Shown here: in pieces, positions 4,992 to 26,194 of the stretch | Layout: every line of letters starts with the position of its first letter | How positions within the stretch are numbered: the first letter of the stretch is position 1 | IMG/VR virus record: IMGVR_UViG_3300017971_000178 | Coordinates: 1-28,682 of that record | Source: a virus | Length of the DNA stretch: 28,682 bases | Direction: 5' to 3' (one strand) | The notes under the pieces: generated by a model | Told to the model about the DNA's origin: nothing | Seen by the model: the letters and a program-made list of their open reading frames with translations, nothing else | The model's database searches: none | Position numbers and translations under genes: made by a program

Positions 4992-7900
4992 TCAATACTC
5001 TCGGACGCCGAGGCGCTCGAGCAAGAATTCCTCGTTTTCGGTCAGGCCAACACCGCCCTGATCACCAGCCTTTTCCTGGCGTTCCTTCGACCGCCAAAGC
5101 GAATCCGTCGTGATTTCCAGTTCTGGGTACAGCCCATTGAATTTGTCGATGGCATCTTCGATCTTCATCTCGAGGTCGAAGTCCCCGTCGGCGACAGCAC
5201 GCCGCCACCTGGCCATCAGGAGGCGCTTCTCGTTCTTGATCTTGCGCGGCAGTGACCTGGCGGTGTTGATGCGCTCGTAAGCCCTGTTCACCTGTGCAGG
5301 TGCCATGCCCGTTGCCTGGATCACACGTTGCCAGCGGGGAATGTCCTCGGCGGCCAGGTACTCGGTGCCCGACAGGGACGTCACGCCTTCCTCGCCATAC
5401 CGAGAAGCCTTCGAGATATCCTTGAAGAACTTGGGCAAAATCGGTTCGATGGCACGCCAGAAGCCCATCTGGTCGTCTTGCAGCCGCTTATATACCTCGA
5501 ACACGTTGAAGCTGAGGTTGGCGAAGGGACCGAGGCGGTCGATGACGAACTTCTCTGCAAACTCCCTGCCCTGTTCATCGGGGACATCCAGCAGGAACAG
5601 GCTATCCAGTCCGATGCGTGATGCGGTGTCGATGCCAAGCGCGTTCACCGGCCCTTCCAGGATGAGGTGCCGCCAGAACGGGTCATCAATGTATTCAACC
5701 GACTGCTGCCGCAGCCACTGGTCGAGGCTGAGCATGTCGTCTTCATCTTCCTCGTCCCAGCCAATAGCCTCTGCTATCCACTCGCCGCCTGCGATGACAG
5801 CACGGATCGGCTCGGAAAGCACCGACCCCATCATCCCTGCGAACACGTAGTGGGTGCCGACCAAACCGGCCAGTGCCTTCCTGGCTTCACCCGGGGACAT
5901 CTTGTCGCTCCGACCCAGGCTGGCATTGGCCAGGCGGATAAACAGCCCGTATATCGAGTGGGCATACATTTGAAAGGCGACCATCGGGCGGGCGAGCGCG
6001 TAGCGGAACATGCGCGGTTTGTTGGTCGTCGAGTAATCGAACTGGGTGTCGCGCACCAAGTCCCGTGCGTACCGCGTCGCCTCGCGGTTGGCATCGGCCG
6101 TGGTCATGCCCTGCTGTGCGTTCAGTTCCTGTTCCAGGCGGAAGCCCGCGATAGCCGAAACAAACCTGTTGCTGAATTCGACGAATTGCGGCAACGAACG
6201 CGCCAGGTTCAGTGAAGCGTTCCACGTCGTTCCCACAACGCCACCAGTCGCCGTGCCGACCTGCTTCAGGTCTTCCACGAAGCCAATGTCCAGCAGGCCG
6301 CTCCATCTCACCGTGTCGAGCATCTTCGCTTCGGCGGCAGTGATGACGCCGCGCTTCTCCATCCGGGTCAGCGCCAACTTGAAGTCGGGGTTGCCCGTCG
6401 CCACCAGGTCAATCAGCTCCTTCATGAAGTCCGTCGTACTGTCGGGACCGCCACCCAGGAATTCAGCCTGCGCCTTGGTCATGGCCTTGAAGGCACGGAC
6501 GGGACCGTGGCGGGCCGACAGTAAGGGATAAGTCACCACCCATGGCTGGGTCGCGTTGATGAACGAATAGGACAGCGATCCCAGGTGCCAGAGGAACGTC
6601 ACCTCGGATATTTTCGACGCCGCCCTCTGCCAGATGCTGTCCAACCCGCTGGCGTCCATGTCGTCGCGGCGGATCAGTTCCTTCAGGATTGCCTCCACAT
6701 CGGTGACATCGCGGCGCGTGCCTGCGCGTTTCGTGGCCTTAATCTGCTGGCGCATCTGGTCAAAGGTATGCCGGATGCGCTGGGCGTGTTGCGCGTTCGC
6801 CTTGGCGTTCGCCATGGACTGGGCGTACACACTGAATGAACGGTCGAAATCCCTGCTGGCACCTCTGACCTTCCTCCTGTGCCTGCGAGCCTGAAGCACC
6901 GACGTGTCGGGCAGCATGTCGAGGAACGCACTCCGCAGCGCCTGCTGTGCGCGGGGGTCGTCCAGCTTGCCCTCTACCTGGAGCATGGCGCGACCCAGTG
7001 CCGACGTGTTGTCCGGCTTGTAGGAGTCCTTCTCGCTGATGGCATGGACCTCATACACGCCGGTCGCCTTCAACTCCTTCTGGGTCTTCTCCGCGTCGGC
7101 GAACGATTCATGGAACTCGACGATGCGGTCATTGGTCTCGAAGCGCCACTGCCCGTTGTCCATCTGTACCGGCGCGGATACCTGGAGCGTCGGATTCTCG
7201 GCTCTCAGTTCCGCGATGTCAGCAGTCGCGTCTTCATAAGTCGCCACCACGTAGTCCGTCACGTTCTCCGCCTCGACGATGTACTGGCCGAAACGCCGCA
7301 GCGGGAAGTACGGACCGCGTGTCCGCGCAGGGGCAGCCAGGTCAAGCAGTGTTTTCAGCGTGCGGGAGTCCGCAACGGGTTTGGTCTGGGTGGCACCTTG
7401 CTCATAGGCAAGGGCGTTCTTCCGCGCCTGCGTCAGCGAAGCGTGAATGGCCTGCGGTGTCTTGCCCTTGATGACACGGGCATCCACCCCCAGCGCACGG
7501 GCGGCGTTGACCATGTTCGCCGATACCAGGTCATTGAACAGCTTCTCGTTCTGGCGGTGGACGTCGGTGAATAGCTGCTTGGCACGGTCGGTCAGCAGGT
7601 TGTACTCGAGGCGTGCGATCTCCCAGTCCTTGTCACCCACATGCTCGTTGCTCGGGTGGTCGCGGGAGCGGTCGGGATACACCTCGCGGATGGTCGCGGT
7701 GTGCATGACGTTGTGCAGGTCGGTGCGCTCGGCGGGCTTCAGTTTCCGCCACTGGCGCAGGATGGCGTCTGCCGTCTCCAGGCTCTCGCGGGTACGGCGG
7801 GATTTTGACGTGTACAAGTTTTGCAGGTGCCTGATCGGGTTCACCCGCTTGCCGCCATGCAGCGGCTGGATGGGGGAGAATTCCTTGGCATACAGGTCCA

Positions 7901-10826
7901 CGATGTCGTGCTGCTTCAACCAGCCGACCAGTCCTTTCCGAGCGCCACGGGACAGCACCGGCCACTTGCGGCGTATCGCACGCGATGTCCTGGTGATGAT
8001 GTCGCTGCCGCCTCGGATCATGGCCTCGTCGGGCAGCACCCCAGGCTCGAACGGTTGTGCCGCCGGGCGGACTTCCTCGGCACGGCGCTTCTGCTCGCTG
8101 CGCTGGCGCGACTTCTCCTTGATGCGCTCCGCTTTCGCTTCCTTGCGCTCAGCTTTCTGGTCGGCGGCGCGTTGCTTCTGGCGGGCTTCCTTCTGCTTCT
8201 GGCGATCCTTCAGGGATGCCCGCTTGGCGCGTTCTTCTTCCAGGCGCTGGCGGTAGCGGTCACGGGCAGCTTTCAGTCGGGCCTTGCCCGCTTCCTTCTC
8301 AGCCGAAACATCGGCTTCCCGCCGGGCACGTTCATACGCCACATCGGCTTCACGCTCAGCACGTTCTTGCGCGGCAGCCTGCCGTGCGGCACGTTTCTCT
8401 GCCTGCCTGGATACCCCCCGCGTACTTAACGCTCCTGCTTCGTGAGCCTGGAGCGTAATCTGCTGCGCCGCCAGGTCGAGGGCCTTGTCGAGGTTTTCAC
8501 CTTTCGCCTTGCGGAGTTCAGCCGAAACCTTCGGCGACACACGGGCAACGGCGTCGGCCAGTTGCTGCATACGCCCACGCAGATCGCCCTTCTTCACCGA
8601 GAGGCGGTTAAGGGCTTCCAGGGCGTCGCGGGCGTCGGACACCACGCGGCGGAGGGGCTTCATCTCCCGGCGGATGTCGGCGCGGCGTTTCAGCCACTCC
8701 GAGCGCCGCTCGCGGCTCTGACCATCAAGCCCCTTGCTACGGGTGCGGTATGCCTTTTCCAGGCGGTCGAGGGTTTGCTGCCCCTCCGCAACGCGGCTTT
8801 TCAGGAGCCGCCTGGCGTTCTGGGCAACGGTGTCCAGGTTCTCTCGCCGCAGCTTCAGTCGCTGCGACGCCGAGAGTGTCGGGGTGGGGCGACGCGGGGC
8901 CGGGCGCTCGCCGAAATTCAGGTCTAGCTGTTCACCGCCTGCGTATTGCTCCCCGCCCACAGGCTGCTCATCAGGCGTGTAGGCCATGTCGTCGGCGGAC
9001 ACGGTGGTGTCGGGCGTTACCGGCGCAGGTTCCACACCCAGGATTCGCTCGAGTACCTGGCGGGCCATCTTGCGGCGGGCGTCGCTGTACCCAGGCTCGG
9101 TGCCGTCGGCAACACGCTCCAGCTTGTCGAGGATGTCCTCGGTCGTGGCACCGTCGAGTTCACGCTTCCGCAGGTTCCTGGCCAAGCCCTCATTCAGCCC
9201 GCGATTCTGCACACGGGGCATGATGTCTTCGTAGGCAGCCAGCGCCTCGTCGATCAGCGCGGTCTTTTCGGCTAGGACTTCATCGCTTTGCGCGGTCTGC
9301 CCATCTGCTTCGGTGCCGACACCGGCGTCTTCACCAGGGGCTTGGCCCGTCGCGGCTTGGTCGGCAGTGGCGCTGTCCGCAGTTTCCGGCCCGCCGTCAA
9401 ATGGTCCGCCGCCTCCAGGTTGCGGCTGCTCTGCTTGCCCGCCTTCCGATATGTCTTCGTCACCTGCTTGAGCCGTGAACCCGTCAGTGGGGGACGGCCC
9501 GGCCGATTCGCCACGTACTTGCCCATCGGTTTCTCCTGCATTCGCTGCCGCGCCAACGGCATCAAGATCGGGGTCCGCACCTGCGCCTTGCTCGGGCGAA
9601 GGCACCTCGGCCCCCATGTTGTTCGGCCCGTCGGTGGCAGCATTGATTGCGGCTGCCTCGGCGTCGCCGCTGATGCCGCCCGTTTCCACATCGGTACGGT
9701 CGCGGGACACGTATTTCTGCACACCGCCTGTTACCGCACCGACGGGACCGCCCAACACCGCGCCCTGCAAGCCTGCCTCGGCAGCGCCACCCAGGGTCGC
9801 ACCCCTCTCGGTGCCGAGGTGCGTGGCGGTGTACTCGCCAGATTCCTGGACGAACTCCGTTCCCATCTCTTTCGCAGCGCCGGTGGCAATACCGGCACCT
9901 TTGATACCGAACCGCTCCAGCAGCGTGGCAACGAGGGCAGTGCCTGCGCCGATGGCGTAGTCTTCCTGCCCAGGTTCCTCGCGCCCATCATTGGCAGCGC
10001 GTTCCGAGGCGATTTCTTCAGTGCGGGACAGGAAGTACGTCTGCGGTAGTCCGAGGGCGGCAACGCCGTCTACCATCGCAGCGGGGCCATGCTCCATAAC
10101 GAAGGAAGCCGTGGTGCCCATCAACCCGAACGGATTGCCTTCGTCCCAGGCTGTCTTCACATCGTCCCAGGCTGTGTCTTCGACGTAGCCGAAGTCGTGA
10201 CCCTTGGCCCATTCACCCACGATGTGGAACACGTCGCGCTCGTCTGCGCCGGTCTCTTCAAGCAGGCGTTGCATCTGCTCGGGGTTGCGGGTGTATCCGC
10301 CCGCGCCGCCTTCCCCCCAGGTGAAGCCACCCAGCGGTATGCGTTCTTCCAACCAGGCAGCGGGTTTCTCGGACGCCTCGTCCAGGAACTCAACGAAGTT
10401 CCCGACGAGTTCCGCGCCGCGTTCGCCCATCTTGCGAGCGAAGTTGAACGCGGGTGTATCAGGTTCGCCCCCGCTGGCGGCTGACTGGAGATCAGTTTCC
10501 GCCGCTGAGGAGTCGGCGGGACCAACGGGAGCGAATTCGGGTTCGACCAGCGGGTCGGATGACCACCAGTCTTCGGTGGCCTCGCCACCTAGTGCTGTAG
10601 CCGAGCGGTCGCCGTAGGTCGCACGGTCATAGCCCTCGTATAAATCCTGGATCGGAACGGCGTCGGGGTCTACGCCTTCAAACCGCACATCGGCGCGGGG
10701 GGTGAACTCGGGTTCGACCAGCGGGTCGTTCTCCCACCAGTGGTCCTCGTCGGGGTCACCCGAAGGTGGCGGGACAGGCGCTGCCTCCTGCACCAGCGGG
10801 TCGTTCTCCCACCAATTCTCAGCCAT
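4992..10826 (-). CDS. Large polyvalent-type protein, predicted injected/internal virion protein (1944 aa)
   Basis: A giant 1944-residue protein. In order it shows: three WW(E/S)xDPLV repeats at residues 5-12, 30-37 and 87-94; a glycine/alanine-rich segment (about 290-375) of the sort that can insert in membranes; a low-complexity acidic region to about 600; long charged coiled coils (about 645-775 and 805-915); a conserved helical region with PLRRFG near 1175, the PLxRFG motif of large phage proteins; hydrophobic helices near 1405-1435 and 1650-1690; and a C-terminus like LPD38 (about 1600-1944). Such proteins are known from podophages and other mobile elements as large polyvalent proteins, some of which are injected with the DNA. 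I see no lysozyme, polymerase or protease active-site motif. The ATG overlaps the upstream stop (TGATG). Finding it without capsid genes is the main oddity. Confidence 0.88.
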   Translation of the reverse strand: MAENWWENDPLVQEAAPVPPPSGDPDEDHWWENDPLVEPEFTPRADVRFEGVDPDAVPIQDLYEGYDRATYGDRSATALGGEATEDWWSSDPLVEPEFAPVGPADSSAAETDLQSAASGGEPDTPAFNFARKMGERGAELVGNFVEFLDEASEKPAAWLEERIPLGGFTWGEGGAGGYTRNPEQMQRLLEETGADERDVFHIVGEWAKGHDFGYVEDTAWDDVKTAWDEGNPFGLMGTTASFVMEHGPAAMVDGVAALGLPQTYFLSRTEEIASERAANDGREEPGQEDYAIGAGTALVATLLERFGIKGAGIATGAAKEMGTEFVQESGEYTATHLGTERGATLGGAAEAGLQGAVLGGPVGAVTGGVQKYVSRDRTDVETGGISGDAEAAAINAATDGPNNMGAEVPSPEQGAGADPDLDAVGAAANAGETDGQVRGESAGPSPTDGFTAQAGDEDISEGGQAEQPQPGGGGPFDGGPETADSATADQAATGQAPGEDAGVGTEADGQTAQSDEVLAEKTALIDEALAAYEDIMPRVQNRGLNEGLARNLRKRELDGATTEDILDKLERVADGTEPGYSDARRKMARQVLERILGVEPAPVTPDTTVSADDMAYTPDEQPVGGEQYAGGEQLDLNFGERPAPRRPTPTLSASQRLKLRRENLDTVAQNARRLLKSRVAEGQQTLDRLEKAYRTRSKGLDGQSRERRSEWLKRRADIRREMKPLRRVVSDARDALEALNRLSVKKGDLRGRMQQLADAVARVSPKVSAELRKAKGENLDKALDLAAQQITLQAHEAGALSTRGVSRQAEKRAARQAAAQERAEREADVAYERARREADVSAEKEAGKARLKAARDRYRQRLEEERAKRASLKDRQKQKEARQKQRAADQKAERKEAKAERIKEKSRQRSEQKRRAEEVRPAAQPFEPGVLPDEAMIRGGSDIITRTSRAIRRKWPVLSRGARKGLVGWLKQHDIVDLYAKEFSPIQPLHGGKRVNPIRHLQNLYTSKSRRTRESLETADAILRQWRKLKPAERTDLHNVMHTATIREVYPDRSRDHPSNEHVGDKDWEIARLEYNLLTDRAKQLFTDVHRQNEKLFNDLVSANMVNAARALGVDARVIKGKTPQAIHASLTQARKNALAYEQGATQTKPVADSRTLKTLLDLAAPARTRGPYFPLRRFGQYIVEAENVTDYVVATYEDATADIAELRAENPTLQVSAPVQMDNGQWRFETNDRIVEFHESFADAEKTQKELKATGVYEVHAISEKDSYKPDNTSALGRAMLQVEGKLDDPRAQQALRSAFLDMLPDTSVLQARRHRRKVRGASRDFDRSFSVYAQSMANAKANAQHAQRIRHTFDQMRQQIKATKRAGTRRDVTDVEAILKELIRRDDMDASGLDSIWQRAASKISEVTFLWHLGSLSYSFINATQPWVVTYPLLSARHGPVRAFKAMTKAQAEFLGGGPDSTTDFMKELIDLVATGNPDFKLALTRMEKRGVITAAEAKMLDTVRWSGLLDIGFVEDLKQVGTATGGVVGTTWNASLNLARSLPQFVEFSNRFVSAIAGFRLEQELNAQQGMTTADANREATRYARDLVRDTQFDYSTTNKPRMFRYALARPMVAFQMYAHSIYGLFIRLANASLGRSDKMSPGEARKALAGLVGTHYVFAGMMGSVLSEPIRAVIAGGEWIAEAIGWDEEDEDDMLSLDQWLRQQSVEYIDDPFWRHLILEGPVNALGIDTASRIGLDSLFLLDVPDEQGREFAEKFVIDRLGPFANLSFNVFEVYKRLQDDQMGFWRAIEPILPKFFKDISKASRYGEEGVTSLSGTEYLAAEDIPRWQRVIQATGMAPAQVNRAYERINTARSLPRKIKNEKRLLMARWRRAVADGDFDLEMKIEDAIDKFNGLYPELEITTDSLWRSKERQEKAGDQGGVGLTENEEFLLERLGVREY

Positions 10827-13989: not shown

Positions 13990-14215
13990 CAAGCAGCAGT
14001 TCGGTTTGTTCCCGCGCCCGGTGTTCGTCGTCGATACGCTCGGCGAGGTATGTCACGCCTGCGGCCGCTACGAACGCACAGTCAGTTTTGATGCGCCCGG
14101 CAGGGGTTGGATACATCTCTGCGAGGGCTGCCTGGCACGGGGGATCGAGGCGCTGGCAGAGGCCAACACGCGGGCGCGGGCTGCACAGAAAAGAGAGTCG
14201 GGGTTCGACCGCTAG
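13982..14215 (+). CDS. Small zinc-finger protein (77 aa)
   Basis: A 77-residue protein with a four-cysteine metal site: CHACG near residues 20-24 and CEGC near residue 46, enclosing a short beta hairpin (RTVSFDAPGRGWIHL). It ends in a basic helix (ARAAQKRES). Such treble-clef or ribbon folds are common in small phage DNA- or protein-binding factors. The GTG start at 13982 overlaps the stop of the 130-aa gene (GTGAGTAG), consistent with coupling, and no in-frame ATG gives a better start. Its end overlaps by four bases with the end of the convergent repressor-like gene. Confidence 0.65.
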   Translation: MSSKQQFGLFPRPVFVVDTLGEVCHACGRYERTVSFDAPGRGWIHLCEGCLARGIEALAEANTRARAAQKRESGFDR

Positions 14216-14541
14216 TCCAGCCCCTCCCAGGGGTCCAGGTCACTGCGGGGCGGGGTGAGGTCAGCTTTGCGGCACACCTGCCGTAGCCATGCAAGGTGGC
14301 TACGCCGCAAGGTCACGTCTTCGGTACGCAGCAAGTGGCAGTAGGTTGCGAACGCGCTGGGGTTGATGTCCACCATGTTGGCAAGGGCGATGGCTGTGTC
14401 TCCTCGAGGAGTGGAGCGGCCCTGTATCCAGTGGGTCACGGCAGCCTTGCCTGTCACACCGAGGCGTTCGGCAAGAGCCTGGTTGCTGGAGAGGTGATGC
14501 CTCTGCTTGGCGAGGTCGATGAGGGCTTTGAAGTACGTCAT
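14212..14541 (-). CDS. HTH repressor-like regulator (109 aa)
   Basis: A 109-residue regulator with a helix-turn-helix in the N-terminal half: ALAERLGVTGKAAVTHWIQG at about residues 22-41. A helical segment follows (DTAIALANMVDINPSAFATY). The pattern matches small XRE/Cro-like phage regulators, possibly the DUF3693-type group. ATG 14541 has AAGGA upstream. The longer frame to 14595 would begin inside the 26-bp repeats. It faces left, away from the 15-kb control region, and its upstream DNA carries the iterons and a GTACAG-N6-CTGTAC palindrome. The likely role is to repress itself and the divergent rightward genes (ArdA, integrase), like a phage immunity repressor. It has no peptidase domain. 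Confidence 0.8.
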   Translation of the reverse strand: MTYFKALIDLAKQRHHLSSNQALAERLGVTGKAAVTHWIQGRSTPRGDTAIALANMVDINPSAFATYCHLLRTEDVTLRRSHLAWLRQVCRKADLTPPRSDLDPWEGLD

Positions 14542-14592
14542 CGTTCGGGTTCCTTGGTGGTCTTGGTCTTCGTCGTGGCCTTGGTCTTGGAT

Positions 14593-14737
14593 CACGTATT
14601 GCTGTCGTGACCTTGGTCGCCGTGACCTTGGTTCACGTATTGCTGTCGTGACCTTGGTTCACGTATTGCTGTCGTGACCTTGGTTCACGTATTGCTGTCG
14701 TGACCTTGGTTCACGTATTGCTGTCGTGACCTTGGTC
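14593..14737. repeat. Iterons: five 26-bp direct repeats plus a partial copy
   Basis: A 26-bp unit beginning CACGTATTGCTG and ending GACCTTGGTT starts at 14593, 14634, 14660, 14686 and 14712. The last four are in perfect tandem, and a half unit (CGTGACCTTGGTT) fills the gap after the first. They lie immediately upstream of the HTH gene start. Tandem iterons of this size can be replication-initiator sites, partition sites or cooperative operators. The adjacent AT-rich stretch near 14930-14990 fits any of these. Confidence 0.9.
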
Positions 14738-14967: not shown

Positions 14968-15060
14968 CATACACTTTCACTTAATGACCTTGTGTACCTG
15001 ATCACATAATCCATTCTGACATTCGTGATACACACCTAGGGGTATAGCGTTGCCATCGAA

Positions 15061-15147
15061 TTACCAGGTGGACCCGGTGCGATTGCCGTCGGCTTACCAG
15101 GTGGACCCGGTGCGATTGCCGTGGCGTGACCCGGTGTACCTGGTAAT
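15061..15147. repeat. Two 29-bp direct repeats plus an inverted third half
   Basis: An identical 29-bp sequence (TTACCAGGTGGACCCGGTGC followed by GATTGCCGT) occurs at 15061-15089 and 15094-15122, a spacing of 33 bp or about three helical turns. Just after, ACCCGGTGTACCTGGTAATT (15128-15147) is an inverted, slightly diverged copy of the first 20 bases. Two direct and one inverted site at helical phasing suggests cooperative protein binding. Confidence 0.85.
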
Positions 15148-15259: not shown

Positions 15260-15550
15260 ATGTTATCTATTGAACGACAGGCACAGCACTACGCCTCACA
15301 CATTCAGAGAACAGGCAAGCGGATTGTGTATCTGTGGCCTCGTACCAAGTTGATGACGTCGCGTGCCAATCAAGCCCGGCTGCATCTGCTCGCGGCACTA
15401 CTGAATACAGGCACAAGGGCATACGGCTACACACAGGCGCAACGCTTGGACCAGCTTGAACAACTGGCACTGAAGGCGGGCTACTGCCTGAAAGAAGTGG
15501 ACGGCGAAGGCTGGGCCGTGGAAGTGGAACCCAAAACCGAAGCGGCATAA
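15260..15550 (+). CDS. Hypothetical protein (96 aa) upstream of ArdA
   Basis: A 96-residue protein with a basic N-terminus (IERQAQHYASHIQRTGKRIVYLWPR) and a C-terminal part (GYCLKEVDGEGWAVEVE) that may form a beta hairpin. No family is recognised. Its leader ACTCAGAGGAAAC is repeated exactly before the ArdA gene, so the two genes share the same ribosome-site context. It is the first rightward gene after the control region and is followed by a hairpin at 15556-15589. A role in early establishment along with ArdA is plausible from position only. Confidence 0.7.
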   Translation: MLSIERQAQHYASHIQRTGKRIVYLWPRTKLMTSRANQARLHLLAALLNTGTRAYGYTQAQRLDQLEQLALKAGYCLKEVDGEGWAVEVEPKTEAA

Positions 15551-19032: not shown

Positions 19033-19122
19033 CCCAAATCGCTGGGCAGGCAGCAGAGCTTTCCTCAAGCACGTTCATTATACACTGCCGCTTGCCCTCC
19101 ACGAAGAAGTATGGAGGAGAGT

Positions 19123-22100
19123 ATGGTCACACGCGAATTCCTGGCGAGGGTATGGCCCGAACTGCCAGAAGGCGCACGCTACGTAATCGCCAAGCCCAAC
19201 GGGTTTCACCCTGACGGGAAGCCGAAGTTCAGGAACATCGCCCGCGCTTCGATCAAGCAGGCTGCGTCCACGGCGCTGGCAATCTCCAAGGACAACGAAG
19301 AGGCGTTCTTCGCTACCCACATCTTCGCAGGCGGGGAGAACTGGCAGCGGCGTGGCGACCAGGCTGGCGGCAGCAAGGTGTTCTACCTTGATCTCGACTG
19401 CGGACCAGGCAAGCCGTACGCCACCAAGAGAGACGCCGTTGCGGCGGTGGGGACTTGGTGCAAAACCGTTGGGCTGCCTATCCCCACAATCATCCTGTCA
19501 TCCGGCAACGGCGTCCATGTGTACTGGGTCATGGACAGCCTCGTGGACGAGGACGCCTGGCTGCCCGTCGCCAAGGGCCTGAAGAAACTCTGCCACGACC
19601 ACGATCTGCTCGCCGACGACACCGTAACGACAGACCCCGCAAGAATCCTCCGCCCGCCAGGTACGCGCAATCACAAGAAGCCCGAAGCCCCGAAGGACGT
19701 CGAAATCCTGAAGCAACGCGACGGGGACTATGACTTCCAGGAATTCCGTGACCGGGTGGTCAGAGCCTGTGGCGGCAAACTGCCCAACGGCTCCATGACA
19801 GAAGCCCCACACATCGCCATCAACGTCGGACCCGACCAGGAATGGCCGAACAAGGTTATCGTGGAGTCGGTCCTCGACCTCAACGCGGGTGTGAACAAAC
19901 TCGTCGAGCACCAGGACGCGGAGGGGCGACGGGACACGTCGCTCAGTAGCTGGGACTCCTCCATCGCGCTTTCCTGCGTCAATGCGGGCATCACCCCGGA
20001 CGTGATCGCCCAGATCGTCGCCTACCACCGCCTCAAGTGGCACGATGATAAGGACAAGTGGAACCGCGCCGACTACCTGGAACGGACCATCGCCAACGCC
20101 ATGGCGGTACATGCCTCTGAGGATTCGATGGACACCGCAGCGGAGCAGGCGGCTTCGCGTGCCGACGCCATCGAATCAGCGGTTACGGCCGCCACCGAGA
20201 ACCCGAAGCTGCGGAGCGTCCTCATCAGGGCCGTGGAGCTAACCGAGGCAGACTACGCCCTCCAACGGAAGGAGCTGGCAGAAGAGGCCGGGATGGGGGT
20301 GCGAGACCTGGATAAGACCGTCAAGCGCACACGAGAGCAGGTAAACAAGAAGAGGAAGGTCCACGCATACGGATTCACCATATCCGCAGGTCGCATCTGC
20401 GAGGAGCGCGAGAATTTCGACGGCAAAATTGAGGAGGTCGCGCTATGCAACTTCGCTGCGCGGATCGTCCACGAGGAGATTGAAGATGATGGGTACAAGG
20501 AAACCCGGACCTTCACGATAGAGGGCGAGGATATGGTCGGGCGACCGTTCCCCACGATTCACATCCGCGCAAGCGACTTCGACACCATGAACTGGGTCAC
20601 GGCGCAGTGGGGCGCGAACGCCATCATCATGTCGCAGCGGCGTGGCAGCAAAGAGATTCTGGCCGAGGCCATCAAGCATCTCTCGGCTGTCGGAGCAGAC
20701 GGGGGGAGGATACCCTCAAACCGCGTGTATCTGCACACGGGGTGGCGTCGCATTGACCAGGAGTGGACGTACCTGTTCAGTACCGGCGGAATCAGCCGCC
20801 ACGGCTCGGTAGAGGGCGTATCCGTGGAGTTACCTGATTCCCTGCGCCACTACCGCCTGGAACTGCCGGAATCGCCCCAGGAGCTGCGTGAGGGCATCAC
20901 GGGGCTACTAAACGTCCTGGACGTGTACCCCAAGCAGCCTGGCATCGGCTACGCGCTCCTGAGCGACGTTTTCCGCGCCCCTACGAACGAAATCACGCCG
21001 ACACGGCACACCTTCTGGCTGGCGGCGAAAACGGGGTCGCTGAAGTCGGCGGTAATCCACGCAATGCTCCAGGCATATGGTGCCTGGCCCCCGGACGAAT
21101 TTCCGGCCAACTGGCAAGGCACCGCCAACCAGATCGAACACGCCGCCGCGATGGCCAAGGACATCTGGTTCCCCATCGACGACTACAAACCAGGGACGGG
21201 GGGTCCGGGTGCCAGCAGCGAACTCGGCAAAAAGGCGGAACGGCTGATCCACCACGGTTTTGCCAACAGGCAGGCCAGGGGAAGGATGACGGCGGACATC
21301 AAGGAACGCCCATCGTATATCCCTCGAGGTACGGCGGTCACGACAGCGGAGGAAGTCCCGTTGGGAGAAAGCCTCCGTGCCAGGCTGGTGATCGGTGAGG
21401 TCGAGCGGGAGCACGTTGACCTGGAGGCGCTCAGCCGACTCCAGGCGGCGGCGTACAGCGGGGTATTCATGAAGGTCATGGGTGCCTACGTACAGTGGCT
21501 GGCGGGCGGCATGGGCACACTGAAGGTGGAGGTTGGCAAATTTCGCGGCAAGGTCGAGTTCTCACACTCGCGCCATGCGGACACCCTGGGGTCCATGCAC
21601 GAGGGGTTGAGGCTGTTCCTGAAGTTCTGTGTGGACAACAAGGCCATGAAGAAGGAGAAGGCTGCGGAGATGCTGAAGGCGGGAACAGGCGACCTGGTGC
21701 GCCTGGTGAAGCAGCAGAAGCAGTACCTGCGGGACTCCGACGAGACGGCGATGTTCCTGCGACTGCTGCGGGAGATGCTGGCCTCGGGGATCATCAGCCT
21801 CCAGCCGACGACGCCGCTACCGGCAAACGTCTCGGCCAGGAAACTGGGGTGGGTACACCAGAGTACGGATCGGAACGGGACGATCGCACAAGTCCCCAAG
21901 CCGAACGCCACGGGGGTGGGCTGGTACGACCCGAAGGCGGACGTCGTGTACCTGCTGCCGAAGATGACCTACGAGAGTATGCAGCGGGCCGGGGGGAAGG
22001 CGCTGGCGTTCACTGAGCGGACGATTGCGAAGCGACTGATGGAGAAAGGGATGCTGGCGGCGCACGGCAAGGACGGGGAACCCACAGTAAAGAAACGGAT

Positions 22101-22158
22101 GGGCGCGGGAGCGGTCCAGCGGGTCATCGCACTATCAGGCAAGGCAGCGGGTATGTAG
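19123..22158 (+). CDS. Primase-polymerase / DUF927 helicase fusion (replication protein, 1011 aa)
   Basis: A 1011-residue replication protein. The N-terminal third is an archaeo-eukaryotic-type primase-polymerase: metal-binding D90-L-D92 (FYLDLDCG), S126-SGNGVH-H132 and DPARILRPPGTRNH from 171. The middle carries a linker with helices (about 330-440). The C-terminal part matches DUF927-like helicases: Walker A KTGSLKSA near 636-643 and Walker B PIDD at 684-687, with further conserved helices to about 800. It would prime and unwind the excised circle. ATG 19123 has GGAGGAG upstream. A second ATG at 19111 is possible. The non-coding region after the stop carries a 25-bp inverted repeat, a natural candidate for the origin it acts on. 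Confidence 0.92.
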   Translation: MVTREFLARVWPELPEGARYVIAKPNGFHPDGKPKFRNIARASIKQAASTALAISKDNEEAFFATHIFAGGENWQRRGDQAGGSKVFYLDLDCGPGKPYATKRDAVAAVGTWCKTVGLPIPTIILSSGNGVHVYWVMDSLVDEDAWLPVAKGLKKLCHDHDLLADDTVTTDPARILRPPGTRNHKKPEAPKDVEILKQRDGDYDFQEFRDRVVRACGGKLPNGSMTEAPHIAINVGPDQEWPNKVIVESVLDLNAGVNKLVEHQDAEGRRDTSLSSWDSSIALSCVNAGITPDVIAQIVAYHRLKWHDDKDKWNRADYLERTIANAMAVHASEDSMDTAAEQAASRADAIESAVTAATENPKLRSVLIRAVELTEADYALQRKELAEEAGMGVRDLDKTVKRTREQVNKKRKVHAYGFTISAGRICEERENFDGKIEEVALCNFAARIVHEEIEDDGYKETRTFTIEGEDMVGRPFPTIHIRASDFDTMNWVTAQWGANAIIMSQRRGSKEILAEAIKHLSAVGADGGRIPSNRVYLHTGWRRIDQEWTYLFSTGGISRHGSVEGVSVELPDSLRHYRLELPESPQELREGITGLLNVLDVYPKQPGIGYALLSDVFRAPTNEITPTRHTFWLAAKTGSLKSAVIHAMLQAYGAWPPDEFPANWQGTANQIEHAAAMAKDIWFPIDDYKPGTGGPGASSELGKKAERLIHHGFANRQARGRMTADIKERPSYIPRGTAVTTAEEVPLGESLRARLVIGEVEREHVDLEALSRLQAAAYSGVFMKVMGAYVQWLAGGMGTLKVEVGKFRGKVEFSHSRHADTLGSMHEGLRLFLKFCVDNKAMKKEKAAEMLKAGTGDLVRLVKQQKQYLRDSDETAMFLRLLREMLASGIISLQPTTPLPANVSARKLGWVHQSTDRNGTIAQVPKPNATGVGWYDPKADVVYLLPKMTYESMQRAGGKALAFTERTIAKRLMEKGMLAAHGKDGEPTVKKRMGAGAVQRVIALSGKAAGM

Positions 22159-22249
22159 GGACAAGGGATGGAGGGGCCTCGCCGCCAGGTGGCGAGGCCA
22201 GCACGGAGAGAGGCGGGAGTAAACATACACACAGAACTGTAGAAAGGCG

Positions 22250-22401
22250 TGTTGACGTTGTTGTCGATAATCCTGGGAGGGACACCTGTCTGGGACGCAC
22301 TTGTTTTTCAGGAGCGCCAATACATTACATACATATAATTCAAAAAAAAGGTCTTCGCGCGAGGTCTCTCTTTCCTAGGATTATTGTGAACAACGTCAAC
22401 A
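22250..22401. repeat. Imperfect 25-bp inverted repeat around 102 AT-rich bases
   Basis: The arm TGTTGACGTTGTT-NNNN-ATAATCCT (22250-22274) is the reverse complement of 22377-22401 apart from three mismatches in the middle four bases. The interior has a run of eight A residues and TATAAT. This could be an origin, a replication termination site or the ends of a tiny mobile element, but no target duplication is obvious at the outer edges. Confidence 0.85.
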
Positions 22402-22595
22402 AAGGAGGTAGGTAGGGTAGTTTGCAGGGTTCTATATGTTTTTTATCAGGCAGGCTGTGGGGTACAGCCCCGTTCGGAGTCCGAAATCTGTTTTGTGTGT
22501 ATGCCCTGCCCTTGGGCACAAGGTCACGACTGTTTAATAAGTAGGAAACAAACTGCCCCTGGTTCTTATTGTTTAGCACCTATAGAACCCGTTCC

Positions 22596-22640
22596 TGCAC
22601 ACCTGGTCGGGAGGTCGTTACAGGAAAGTCCAGGTGTGCA
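22596..22640. repeat. Inverted repeat TGCACACCTGG / CCAGGTGTGCA
   Basis: Perfect 11-bp arms with a 23-base loop, 38 bases from the 3' end of the leftward 91-aa gene. There is no T tract on either side, so it is more likely a protein-binding or RNA structure than a simple terminator. Confidence 0.7.
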
Positions 22641-22677
22641 TGGACATGTACACCCTCTGCATGTTGTGCACGAGGCG

Positions 22678-22953
22678 CTACACCAAGTCAGGCAAATTGC
22701 TCATGCCAAATCGGTCGTTCGGATCATCCACATCAACTGTGTCAGCCTTCGTGGCCTCAGCACCAGGTTCACGAGGTCGCTCCAGTCCTGGAATGTTGAT
22801 CGTCAGTATGGAGTCCCGGTCCCTTATGACCTGGCCCCCTAGTGCCCTCTCCCTGGCTTCCTCGAGGGGTTCGTCGCTGTAAGCCATCACCAGGTGCCAG
22901 CGCGGCTCTGCGTTCCCCTCAGGGGCGTATCGCCGCAGGATGGCATCCGCCAA
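22678..22953 (-). CDS. Small hypothetical protein (91 aa, TTG start; possibly frameshifted 5' end)
   Basis: A 91-residue acidic protein (ADAILRRYAPEGN, WHLVMAYSDEPLEEARERALGG, ILTINIPGLERP) of unknown family. There is no in-frame ATG, and the only start near the 5' end is TTG at 22953. Upstream, a different frame reads ATG AGC GAC and so on for eight codons (MSDAEIEA) from 23021 and then meets TGA. Shifting back one base there would join it smoothly to the open frame (LKAELGAGGP, then the 91-aa protein). The gene may therefore be about 114 aa with a frameshift or sequence error. It follows the DUF5681-like gene in the same direction. Confidence 0.55.
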   Translation of the reverse strand: MADAILRRYAPEGNAEPRWHLVMAYSDEPLEEARERALGGQVIRDRDSILTINIPGLERPREPGAEATKADTVDVDDPNDRFGMSNLPDLV

Positions 22954-23046
22954 AGCCTTCCCGGTGGTCGGCCCCCCTGCGCCCAGTTCGGCTTTCAGGC
23001 CTCGATCTCGGCGTCGCTCATCGGCCTATTGGCCTCGTGACCTTGG

Positions 23047-23952
23047 TCATTCATTTATCACCGCCTTCGGTGCTGGCAGCAGCCCCATCTCCCTCGAGAG
23101 TGCCATCAACCTGTGGTCGTTCGTCACCCTGGCTGCCACGAGGACTGGGTGCTCCTTGCTCGCAGCAAGCTGGTCCATGAAGGAGCTGAACACTGCCGCT
23201 TCGCTGACCTTCGCGCTCTGTGCCAAAACCGAGGTCACCAGGTTCGCGTCTTCGGCTGAGATGCCACCGCGCAGCATTTCCTTGGCCACCTCAGCAGCCA
23301 TGTTCGCCGGGCTTTCGTCGGCCAGATCGGGACGGTTGATTTTGGTGGATGGTTTCGGTGGGGGAGTCGTGTACTTCAAATAGAGTTGCATGGCTCCGAG
23401 GTTCCCTTCCTCCGACATCGCTTTCAGTTTGTCCAGCACGGCTGTGACGCCTGTCGTGGCGTGGTGTAGCTGGGTCTGTGCCACGATCTTGGCGGCAGCC
23501 TGCATCTCCTGTTCGAAAGTCGGACCCTTGGCAGCTTCTTCTGAGAGCACTGTTTTGGTGGCGCTCTCCAAGGCTTCCTTCACTTCGTTGTCACTGGCTG
23601 CCACAGCAGGGCTTTTACGCGGCCTACCAGGTCCACCGGGGCTTCCTTTGAGTATTCGCCCTGTGGTGGGGTCTTTCTTGAGGTTGAATCCGTTATTTCT
23701 CCGTTTTTTAGCGTGTGTATTGCCCTTTTTGGGTTCGGGGTCACCGTTTTCTATCGGCAAGGTCACCAAATCACCAGGTTCCGTCCCGTTTTCTTCACCA
23801 AAAACGGTAGTGCCCTCACCGTTTTCATTCGTACATTCGCCAAAAAACGGGCTATCACTAGCCCCCGAGCCATCCCGTTTTTCCGAAAACTCGGCACCAT
23901 GTTTCTCGATCTCCTCCAACCCCGCACTCAAATCCGCCGCATCAACAAACAT
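23047..23952 (-). CDS. DUF5681-like protein with GRPR motif (301 aa)
   Basis: A 301-residue protein. Residues 1-85 are low complexity (acidic, then Lys/Arg/Asn-rich). GSPGGPGRPRKS near residue 105 is a basic glycine/arginine motif like that of DUF5681 phage-associated proteins. A helical part follows, with NLGAMQLYLKYTTPPPKPS and then GGISAEDANLVTSVLAQSAK, which fits the family's later segment (a 'PPRKxxP' turn and a helix before 'aeLa.Lv'). The function is unknown. Such proteins are often near packaging or mobile-element genes and may bind DNA. ATG 23952 has GAGGTG five bases upstream. The N-terminal coding part is dense in inverted AAAACGG/CCGTTTT pairs, like the hairpin region next to it. 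Confidence 0.72.
   Translation of the reverse strand: MFVDAADLSAGLEEIEKHGAEFSEKRDGSGASDSPFFGECTNENGEGTTVFGEENGTEPGDLVTLPIENGDPEPKKGNTHAKKRRNNGFNLKKDPTTGRILKGSPGGPGRPRKSPAVAASDNEVKEALESATKTVLSEEAAKGPTFEQEMQAAAKIVAQTQLHHATTGVTAVLDKLKAMSEEGNLGAMQLYLKYTTPPPKPSTKINRPDLADESPANMAAEVAKEMLRGGISAEDANLVTSVLAQSAKVSEAAVFSSFMDQLAASKEHPVLVAARVTNDHRLMALSREMGLLPAPKAVINE
23786..23882. repeat. AAAACGG / CCGTTTT inverted pairs inside DUF5681-like gene
   Basis: CCGTTTT (23786-23792) pairs with AAAACGG (23801-23807). CCGTTTT at 23819-23825 and AAAAACGGG at 23843-23851 also pair, and the latter pairs again with CCCGTTTTT at 23874-23882. GGGCT/AGCCC (23849-23864) is nested inside. They cover the codons of the low-complexity N-terminal region. 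Confidence 0.7.
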
Positions 23953-24465
23953 CCCGTCACCTCACACACCTATATAGATACCCCGAATTCTAGCCCCCGC
24001 ATCAAAAGCTCACAACTGCGCGAGCCTGTGCGGGGTCAGTGCCCGTGCCAGCGCCCAGTGCCGATGCTGAGCAAGAGCCGTTTCCGGCCGTTGCTCAGCA
24101 CTACCCACCACACCACCAGGGGGATAGGTCAATCGGGGCGATCCGTGATCATGATCGGGATGGCACCGATTGGCCATTTGGCGCATTTGGCTTCGGGCAG
24201 GCAAACTCTGTGCGGCGGCACAGAGTTCTCAGGACGCCCAGCGCCAGCGACAGGCGGGCAAACTTTATGCGGCTGCATAAAGTTCTCAGGACGCCCACCT
24301 CCAGCGGATGCTCACAACCGGCCGTTTCCGGCCGATGGTGGACACTAGCTATGAGGTCAATAAGAGAAGAGGCTCGCACCGTGATCCAGGAACCTGGTGG
24401 CCACGCCGACGTGGTGAACTCGTTTCAACTGCAACGAGTTCCAGACCTGCGCTGCCAGTTATCAG
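23953..24465. other. Hairpin cluster I, upstream part (non-coding)
   Basis: About 510 bases without a gene. Hairpins: GCTGAGCAA/TTGCTCAGC (24066-24099); nested CAATCGG/CCGATTG around GATCATGATC (24130-24172); AACTCTGTGC/GCACAGAGTT (24204-24227) and AACTTTATGC/GCATAAAGTT (24261-24284), which share flanks; CGGCCG-TTTC-CGGCCG (24319-24334); and GAACTCGTT/AACGAGTTC (24416-24441). Open frames here are by-products of the repeats. Confidence 0.8.
24204..24297. repeat. Pair of related hairpins with compensating stem changes
   Basis: Two units 57 bases apart. Both read GGCA-AACT…AGTT-CTCAGGACGCCC outside and differ inside: CTGTGC-GGCG-GCACAG in one and TTATGC-GGCT-GCATAA in the other. Three stem positions changed together with their partners, so pairing is kept. 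This is direct evidence for selection or copying of the structure rather than of one fixed sequence. Confidence 0.85.
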
Positions 24466-24885
24466 AAACCTCGTATTGCGGAATTTCCGCAGTCCGAGGT
24501 TTTCTCGGGGCTTGGTGACTGGCGACTGCGGAATTTCCGCAGTCCCCGCTTTCTCGGCCGCGCCGCCCCCGATCTACTGCCAGGACTTGGTGACTGGGGA
24601 CTGCGTTTTAACCGCAGTCCCCACTTTCTCGGGCTTCAGAAACTGCGTCGTGCGATTAAATCGCAAACCGCACTTTGTCAGGTGCCGGAAACTGCGTCGT
24701 GCGGAAATTCCGCAGTTCGCACTTTGTCGGGCTTCAGAAACTGCGAACTGCGGTTAAACCGCAAACCGCACTTTGTCAGGTGCCGGAAACTGCGAACTGT
24801 CCACCGTTGACAGACCGCACTTTTGTCGGACTTCAGAAACCTCGTATTGCGTTTTAAACGCAGTTCGACCGACACACTTCCGACC
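24466..24885. repeat. Array of eight nested palindromes, 49-50 bp period
   Basis: Units start at 24466, 24516, 24591 (after a 26-base insertion), 24640, 24689, 24738, 24787 and 24837. Each has an 8-base outer arm (AAACTGCG or AAACCTCG type, pairing with CGCACTTT or CGAGGTTT), a 3-base gap, a 15-base inner palindrome such as TGCGGAATTTCCGCA, TGCGATTAAATCGCA, TGCGGTTAAACCGCA or TGTCCACCGTTGACA, a 3-base gap and the outer arm again. Twelve-base linkers GTCAGGTGCCGG and GTCGGGCTTCAG alternate in the later units. The inner stems differ but stay self-complementary. It is not a CRISPR (no constant repeat with unique spacers, no cas genes). Confidence 0.9.
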
Positions 24886-24994
24886 GTCGGGTCCGGGACG
24901 CAGCTACCGCGAAGTGTGAGGGTCGCCCTGCCTCACCCCTCGTGGCCAAGGCGAACCGTCAGGAGGGGTATGCAAAAACTCTCCCCCTGGGACA

Positions 24995-25279
24995 TCAGGA
25001 GAACGACATGAACCCTACGCTGGGGGTGGGGGGTACTTCACGGACGACGCCCATGTACCGCTTGCCGCCCCGCTCGAACTCGACAGCCGACCACCCCGCC
25101 GCGTGGAAAAAATCCTCGATCTTTTTTGCAACCGTGTAGTTCACCGAGTTGCGGATGTCCTCGGCCCCGCACGCCTCACACTTTCTATAGGTCGGGCCGG
25201 AAACGCCTGCTGCCTCGCAGATGTCCCCCTGTGTCAGTCCCGTACCGGCACGCAGCATCCGCAGTTGTGTCCCGTTCAT
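24995..25279 (-). CDS. XRE-type HTH regulator (94 aa)
   Basis: A 94-residue regulator with an N-terminal helix-turn-helix: QLRMLRAGTGLTQGDICEAAGVSGPTYRKCE at about residues 5-35, the usual pattern of XRE/Cro proteins. A helix (VAKKIEDFFHAAG) and a short beta C-terminus follow. The start ATG 25279 has GGAG upstream. It is divergent from the nuclease-helicase operon, with only 165 bases between, where a promoter and a GAAATATTTC palindrome lie. It is therefore the likely local repressor of that operon. Its 3' side borders the hairpin cluster. Confidence 0.82.
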   Translation of the reverse strand: MNGTQLRMLRAGTGLTQGDICEAAGVSGPTYRKCEACGAEDIRNSVNYTVAKKIEDFFHAAGWSAVEFERGGKRYMGVVREVPPTPSVGFMSFS

Positions 25280-25361
25280 ATCTATCCACTCCGTATTTTT
25301 TGACCCCAGCGGGTGACAGGGAGGGTATCAAAATTTCGACAAAGGAAAAAGTATTGGGGGG

Positions 25362-25371
25362 GAAATATTTC
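25362..25371. promoter_or_regulatory. GAAATATTTC palindrome (operator candidate)
   Basis: A perfect 10-base palindrome ten bases before the -35 element of the rightward promoter and within the divergent intergenic region of the XRE gene. It is a plausible binding site for that regulator. Confidence 0.4.
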
Positions 25372-25380
25372 TGGGAGCGG

Positions 25381-25409
25381 TTTACTGCTTAATCAATTCG
25401 TGGTCTAAT
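25381..25409 (+). promoter_or_regulatory. Sigma70-like promoter of the nuclease-helicase-methylase operon
   Basis: TTTACT, a 17-base spacer and TCTAAT, 35 bases before the nuclease start codon. It probably drives the whole rightward operon through the join to the terminator at 2350. Confidence 0.6.
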
Positions 25410-25444
25410 TTGCGAAAGTCAAAAAACGGGTTTGTCCAAAGGGC

Positions 25445-26194
25445 ATGGATAATCGGATGGCGGAGTACCCCTCGGACGAGGAGATTGCAGCGTTGATCGC
25501 CGAGGTCGAGCGTGGATACGCCGCGCTGGAAGCCGCGAAACAGCAGGTCAGGGTCAGTAGTCCCGAAGCCTTGGCTGGTTCGGGGTTTCAGGTGGTATTT
25601 GCCCGTGCCCCGTTGCCCCTGCCTCCTGTGCGGATTGTCGAAACCCTGGCACACGCAGTGAAGCGTCAGAGTCCGCATCGGGGTCCGTCCTACGGCATCG
25701 AAACGGAGTACCGGGGGATTACGTTCGCCAGTCGCGGCGAGGCGCGGTGGGCAGTTGTGTTCGATGAGTTGGGGGTTGAAGCCGTGTACCAGCCGTTCGA
25801 ATTGCGGGGTTACATCCCTGACTTTTCGTTGCCGGATCGCGTCGGCGGAGGGCAGGTACTGGTAGAGGTGAAAGGGGGCTTTTCCGCACTGGTGGAGTTC
25901 TCCGATGCCATGGAGAAAGCCGAGCGGGCGCTGCGGGATTCTGTCAGCAGTGAGCACGACTTTCTGTTCCTGCCGCAGGCTCCCTGGGACGCTGGCGGGG
26001 AGGCTCGTATCGGGTGGGTGAAGCCCTTCGGTGGTCCCCCCGTGGAGTGTGGGCTGGTGGCTTCCAGTGACCCACCCACAAGGTGGCAAGGGGGAGAGGT
26101 CGCGTACCTGCCCGTGCCGCTCGGGGGTGGGGTGTTGTCGTTCGATGAAATTCAGGCGTTGTGGGCGAAGGCCGAGAACGTCACGGCTTACTGA
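25445..26194 (+). CDS. PD-(D/E)XK-like nuclease domain protein (249 aa)
   Basis: A 249-residue protein. After an acidic helical start, residues about 90-160 carry the nuclease-like core: RGEARWAVVFDELGVEAVYQ (conserved Glu near 99), YIPDFSLP (Asp 126) and LVEVKGG (Glu 141, Lys 143). The order E, PD, ExK is the PD-(D/E)XK signature of a common phage endonuclease family. The C-terminal 80 residues are less conserved. It probably cuts or trims DNA, but the substrate is unknown. It is 13 bases before an SF1 helicase gene, so the two proteins may work as one nuclease-helicase unit in recombination or defence. ATG 25445 is favoured by promoter spacing; ATG 25457 is possible. Confidence 0.82.
   Translation: MDNRMAEYPSDEEIAALIAEVERGYAALEAAKQQVRVSSPEALAGSGFQVVFARAPLPLPPVRIVETLAHAVKRQSPHRGPSYGIETEYRGITFASRGEARWAVVFDELGVEAVYQPFELRGYIPDFSLPDRVGGGQVLVEVKGGFSALVEFSDAMEKAERALRDSVSSEHDFLFLPQAPWDAGGEARIGWVKPFGGPPVECGLVASSDPPTRWQGGEVAYLPVPLGGGVLSFDEIQALWAKAENVTAY

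Follow-up and report, generated by a model that had tools for sequence, protein, structure and literature searches.

What keeps the two arms of a palindrome changing together from one copy to the next in a tandem array within a phage intergenic gap, and is that symmetry read in DNA or in RNA, or by nothing at all? The window analysed here, the complete 28,682-base linear virus contig IMGVR_UViG_3300017971_000178, is probably a fragment of a temperate phage, since neither a terminase gene (its large subunit included) nor a capsid gene was recognised in it. Its genes include those for a tyrosine integrase, an XRE regulator, a UvrD helicase, which forms an adjacent pair with a nuclease-like gene, and a primase-helicase with a RepB_primase_C domain. 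The largest protein (4992-10826, minus strand) is a PLxRFG polyvalent protein, whose C-terminal half is related to the giant PLxRFG/DarB-like proteins of ~60 kb phages infecting Rhizobiales, Serratia, Klebsiella and Pseudomonas. Two neighbouring DNA methyltransferases, of the N6/N4 type and the D12 (Dam-like) type, are located at 519-2245, and the protein encoded at 15620-16108 matches the anti-restriction family phrog_2059 (E 7e-28).

The array (24466-24873) occupies part of a non-coding gap of ~1 kb (23953-24994) between two gene units and consists of eight 37-bp nested palindromes in tandem (Table 1). Each unit comprises an 8-base outer arm, a 3-base gap, a 15-base inner palindrome, a gap and the second outer arm. 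This shared plan, put forward in the original prediction, aligns gap-free over 37 columns in all eight units, but a perfect 8-bp outer stem is found only in unit 1. The predicted number of units also stands, whereas the proposed uniform spacing of 49-50 bp does not: the start-to-start distances are 50, 75, 49, 49, 49, 49 and 50, with ~25 extra bases between units 2 and 3. Tandem Repeats Finder reports periods of 49 and 98 and recognises units 4-5 and 6-7 as two copies of a 98-bp dimer with ~90% matches. The two linker types alternate across units 3-7 but only there, and mostly by way of this single duplicated dimer. In units 2 and 3, the outer arms pair weakly and the 3-base gap is closed by GAC/GTC; units 4-7 have a fixed outer-arm C.C mismatch in common, and inner-stem mismatches are limited to one each in units 3 and 7.

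Table 1. Features of the palindrome-bearing gap and its surroundings (positions in the window)
Feature	Positions	Strand	Description
AEP-type primase-helicase	19117..22158	+	RepB_primase_C domain; candidate user of single-stranded hairpins
301-aa protein, array flank	23047..23952	-	GRPRK stretch; no family at useful E-value
Promoter-like TTGTGA-17-TAGAAT ahead of 301-aa gene	23987..24015	-	consensus match only, chance level
44-bp family, copy 1	24060..24103		nested palindrome, TGCTGAGCAA...TTGCTCAGCA around GCCGTTTCCGGC
57-bp repeat, copy 1	24196..24249		perfect 10-bp hairpin AACTCTGTGC-GGCG-GCACAGAGTT at 24204-24227
57-bp repeat, copy 2	24253..24306		perfect hairpin AACTTTATGC-GGCT-GCATAAAGTT at 24261-24284
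44-bp family, copy 2	24304..24347		both members of two pairs differ from copy 1; weaker outer stem
Single hairpin	24416..24441		GAACTCGTT-8-AACGAGTTC, just ahead of array
Unit 1	24466..24502		perfect nested palindrome AAACCTCG-TAT-TGCGGAATTTCCGCA-GTC-CGAGGTTT
Unit 2	24516..24552		inner GGAATTTCC; gap closed (GAC/GTC); outer arm weak
Linker, units 2-3	24553..24590		38 bases, ~25 longer than other linkers, giving the 75-bp interval
Unit 3	24591..24627		inner TGCGTTTTAACCGCA, one T.C mismatch; stem continuous through gap
Unit 4	24640..24676		inner GATTAAATC; 3x3 internal loop; outer-arm C.C mismatch; 98-bp dimer copy 1, first half
Unit 5	24689..24725		inner GGAAATTCC; dimer copy 1, second half
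Unit 6	24738..24774		inner GGTTAAACC; dimer copy 2, first half
Unit 7	24787..24823		inner TGTCCACCGTTGACA, one C.T mismatch; both partners exchanged in inner pairs 3 and 4; dimer copy 2, second half
Unit 8	24837..24873		5' half like unit 1; inner GTTTTAAAC; 3' outer arm lost
Terminator-like hairpin after HTH gene	24982..25003	-	consensus match only, chance level
94-aa XRE-type helix-turn-helix (HTH) protein, array flank	24995..25279	-	

Eight tandem repeats with co-changing arms are real and unusual. Watson-Crick pairs occupy 54 of 56 inner-stem positions and 47 of 64 outer-arm positions. The inner stems had been claimed to differ between units while remaining self-complementary, and a covariation check on the aligned units, proposed at the same time, bears this out: both partners change in eight of 15 pairs, compared with 3.8 +/- 1.1 in column shuffles, none of which (0/500) reach eight; the covariation score is 0.45, against 0.145 for shuffles and at most 0.18 for slid registers; and permutation of half-stems among units yields p = 0.0006 for the inner stem and p = 0.002 for the outer stem. 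It should be noted that the independent events are fewer than the number of units, because the units are related by duplication; ~6-7 such events were counted by eye in the array. The array folds far better than its dinucleotide shuffles on both strands (z -7.8 on the plus strand and -7.2 on the minus strand). On the plus strand, three of the 104 standard pairs are G.U, none of them in an inner stem, and G.U pairs are few on either strand. The symmetry extends to columns 18/20, which pair in 8/8 units despite lying in the loop of any hairpin, a weak point when taken alone, as the units fall into approximately three centre classes.

The statement that structure rather than sequence is kept holds for the centre of the inner palindrome only, while the half-sites, outer arms and linkers do retain their sequence. 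The half-sites TGCG/CGCA are present in seven of the eight units, and the centre between them varies in both halves together. The pattern TGCGN7CGCA occurs seven times in the window, each time inside the array, where 1.3 occurrences are expected and none of 100 shuffles reaches seven. When sister units (U1/U8, U2/U3, U4/U6 and U5/U7) are compared, 17 of 112 frame positions (arms and linkers) differ, against 22 of 60 in the inner 15 bases (p = 0.002). Only the inner centre is thus free in sequence while staying symmetric.

The structured feature is larger than first described and begins ~400 bases ahead of 24466, with two further repeat families in the same gap (24060/24304 and 24196/24253) that demonstrate the same kind of paired changes. 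In the 57-bp repeats, both 10-bp stems pair without a mismatch and exactly two compensatory pairs distinguish them, and 20 of 20 arm pairs in this family are Watson-Crick. The region 24030-24990 as a whole also folds far better than its shuffles, with z -8.6 and -9.7 for the two strands, and its minus strand contains two hairpins with GAAA tetraloops.

Conventional explanations by coding or termination were rejected. With codon scores between -0.21 and -0.01 per codon, the open reading frames across the array lack the coding signal of this phage, whose neighbouring and other genes score 0.12 to 0.25. An array of intrinsic terminators does not agree with the absence of any terminator-like site inside the array, where T runs reach 3-4 only, and on neither strand did a weak consensus scan reveal a promoter-like match directed into the array. 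The 301-aa flanking protein was considered as a terminase small subunit, an identity unsupported by family searches (the fold model was too poor to use), and a packaging site beside its gene is likewise unsupported.

Searches for relatives agree with the earlier statement that the array matches no known family. Rfam covariance models applied to 22000-26000 returned only mir-2253 (E 0.69, below the cut-off) and nothing else even at E 1; no relatives of the array were found in phages, and none in plasmids beyond two 26-28-base chance pieces. As exact patterns in viral contigs, two array patterns gave nothing and a third matched eight stretches, by eye none within a repeat array. A covariance model of the unit gave no match in 50 kin records and two weak matches in 10 whole genomes, the better of which appears to be an unrelated long palindrome; this search of related elements identified no second carrier. 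No copies of the array were detected elsewhere in the window. The suggestion of a self-spreading palindromic element is disfavoured because no copy occurs elsewhere in the window or in the searched collections. Close relatives of the phage were likewise absent from viral contigs with the primase, UvrD, 301-aa and PLxRFG proteins as single queries, and from genome contigs with the primase, while the 301-aa and 249-aa proteins were found in none of 369 genomes of one class. The kin loci, 80 viral and 31 genomic, were those obtained with a primase alignment. A simple hairpin counter, a weak detector by which the window scores five hairpins in 400 bp, assigned the same score to L014, L107, L108, L109 and L111; on inspection, L109, L014 and L107 possess scattered unlike hairpins without tandem units. 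One kin viral contig has a strong hairpin, which may be a terminator, a short way upstream of its primase match (L061:9800-9950). These empty searches carry limited weight because the window is the only known carrier.

We tentatively favour, at somewhat less than even confidence, a cis-acting site for phage DNA transactions, in which the units would act as protein-bound dyads or extruded hairpins. A putative phage protein would read the conserved half-sites, arms and linkers, either as dimers binding each dyad on double-stranded DNA or as a single-strand enzyme acting on hairpins extruded during replication, for which the AEP primase of the phage or the adjacent pair of UvrD helicase and nuclease-like protein are candidates. 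The array may then serve replication, packaging or segregation rather than expression, and the symmetry of the dyad centre could result from selection for pairing, template-switch mutation, or both. This DNA-site reading is consistent with covariation beyond shuffles, slid registers and permutations, with nearly exclusive Watson-Crick pairing in the array and the 57-bp family, with dyad symmetry reaching the central base, with a conserved frame around a variable centre in sister units, and with the lack of coding-level codon scores. The phage also has its own AEP primase with a RepB_primase_C domain, for which RSF1010 RepB' sets a precedent. The position of the array between terminator-like and promoter-like matches points the same way, but both of these consensus matches are at chance level. 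Several further observations weigh against a DNA site: no related array was found that would show a kept place or form, the units are related by duplication with few independent events, a protein that reads sequence leaves the symmetric centre unexplained, the 49-50 bp spacing is not a whole number of helical turns, and the array seems dispensable as the main origin, given another stem-loop (22249-22403) in the place expected from pRN1 and BIP-1.

The symmetry could also have arisen without function, if template switching created the palindromes and maintained their symmetry, and tandem duplication increased their number, in gaps where repeats grow. A single template-switch event can produce a perfect stem or a compensatory change of several bases (PMC8794818), and in this array the centre changes hit neighbouring pairs together, the alternating linkers derive mostly from one duplicated 98-bp dimer, and another gap in the window also contains tandem repeats (26-bp and 33-bp arrays). 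It is thus a serious rival for the symmetry, weakened, however, by a C.C mismatch left uncorrected in six units and by a 3x3 internal loop that stays largely unpaired in six units while its letters change. Three separate palindrome families within one ~1 kb gap also speak against it, as does the retention of frames around changing centres, although much the same picture would be expected from a mutation hot spot at the palindrome centre. On balance, we regard a wholly functionless origin as rather unlikely. More ordinary double-stranded sites, bound by the neighbouring 94-aa HTH protein as its operators or centromere, would account for the HTH gene directly adjoining the gap and for 15-bp dyads with the fixed half-sites. 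We rate this explanation as very unlikely: the dyad TGCGN7CGCA occurs nowhere in the window outside the array, the HTH promoter region included, no ParA-like partner gene was recognised near the array, and neither the paired changes nor the nested outer arms would be explained.

At the RNA level, the region could encode a structured non-coding RNA, up to ~950 nt long, that forms a series of hairpins and acts as a protein sponge, a scaffold or a leader of the 301-aa gene. Folding of 24030-24990 far beyond shuffles, the GAAA tetraloops, the paired changes across three hairpin families and the precedent of the large ornate RNAs GOLLD and ROOL (PMC12286853) argue for such an RNA. The Rfam search, empty even at E 1 save one match below the cut-off, argues against it, together with two strands that fold about equally well, the lack of a promoter-like match into the array on either strand (in a weak scan), and a centre whose symmetry continues into the loop, beyond the reach of hairpin pairing. 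Stems of RNA usually contain clearly more G.U pairs than the few observed here on either strand, and the DNA site is favoured over an RNA, which we consider unlikely, because the pairing is almost purely Watson-Crick. The scarcity of G.U pairs and the symmetry of columns 18/20 together lean toward a DNA-level constraint or a mutational origin. Another reading, to which we give a similarly low probability, is that a fixed frame with interchangeable inner stems is selected for pairing and read structurally by a phage enzyme, as single-stranded DNA or RNA, which would make the array a new kind of phage element.

Should the pairing be under selection, the array offers eight paralogous hairpins within one genome, in which evolution has separated frames from inner stems, and would make it possible to ask directly which part is recognised by a phage enzyme. 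Should the symmetry come from template switching instead, this is a compact case of covariation without function and a warning for covariation-based RNA discovery.

Among known repeats, CRISPR was excluded by the original prediction, in agreement with a frame that varies between units and a variable part that is self-complementary. Similar to REP/BIME elements, the array is composed of short extragenic palindromes in tandem; unlike them, it has no GTAG/CGTC foot, no recognised RAYT transposase and no other copies in the window. The missing foot was correctly predicted, as most units start with AAAC and end with TTT, and CGTC is confined to the interior of units 4 and 5. Iteron, operator and centromere arrays share regularly spaced dyads beside a gene for a DNA-binding protein, but keep their sequence, whereas here the dyads are nested and their inner centre varies symmetrically. 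Other repeats of the window include 4.5 perfect tandem copies of a 26-bp sequence, CGTGACCTTGGTTCACGTATTGCTGT (14586-14736), beside the start of the repressor-like gene 14212-14595, with a core, CGTGACCTTGGT, recurring near 23040. At 15050-15144, 33-bp repeats with ACCAGGTGGACCCGGT-type dyads, the third reversed, precede a plus-strand gene at 15260 and look like an immunity operator array.

GOLLD and ROOL are RNAs of large size that occur in phages. These ornate RNAs form homo-oligomers (PMC12286853) and resemble the array as long, non-coding and highly structured stretches of similar size, but each is a single ornate fold rather than a repeat array, and the array has no Rfam match. The putative origins of pRN1 and phage BIP-1, both of which encode AEP replication proteins, each consist of a single large stem-loop that closely follows the replication gene on its 3' side (PMC4234260). 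Like the array, this stem-loop belongs to an element with an AEP primase-helicase and keeps structure without sequence (PMC4234260); in contrast, it is a single stem-loop of ~100 bp directly 3' of the gene, whereas the array lies ~2.3 kb downstream of the primase stop. By analogy, an origin role of this type fits better with the stem-loop at 22249-22403 (-60 kcal/mol, ~30 paired bases per arm, long loop), located ~90 bases downstream of the primase-helicase stop. Kin do not as a rule share such a stem-loop 3' of the primase, the median z across 71 loci being 0.4. Finally, the RepB' primase of plasmid RSF1010 reads the stem-loops ssiA and ssiB, which serve in single-strand initiation (PMC4434180; PMC4234260). 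There is one such site per strand, with sequence-specific contacts, as opposed to eight tandem units here; like the units, these are sites of ~40 nt, with a hairpin and single-stranded flanks, and RepB' shares its type of C-terminal domain with the phage primase.
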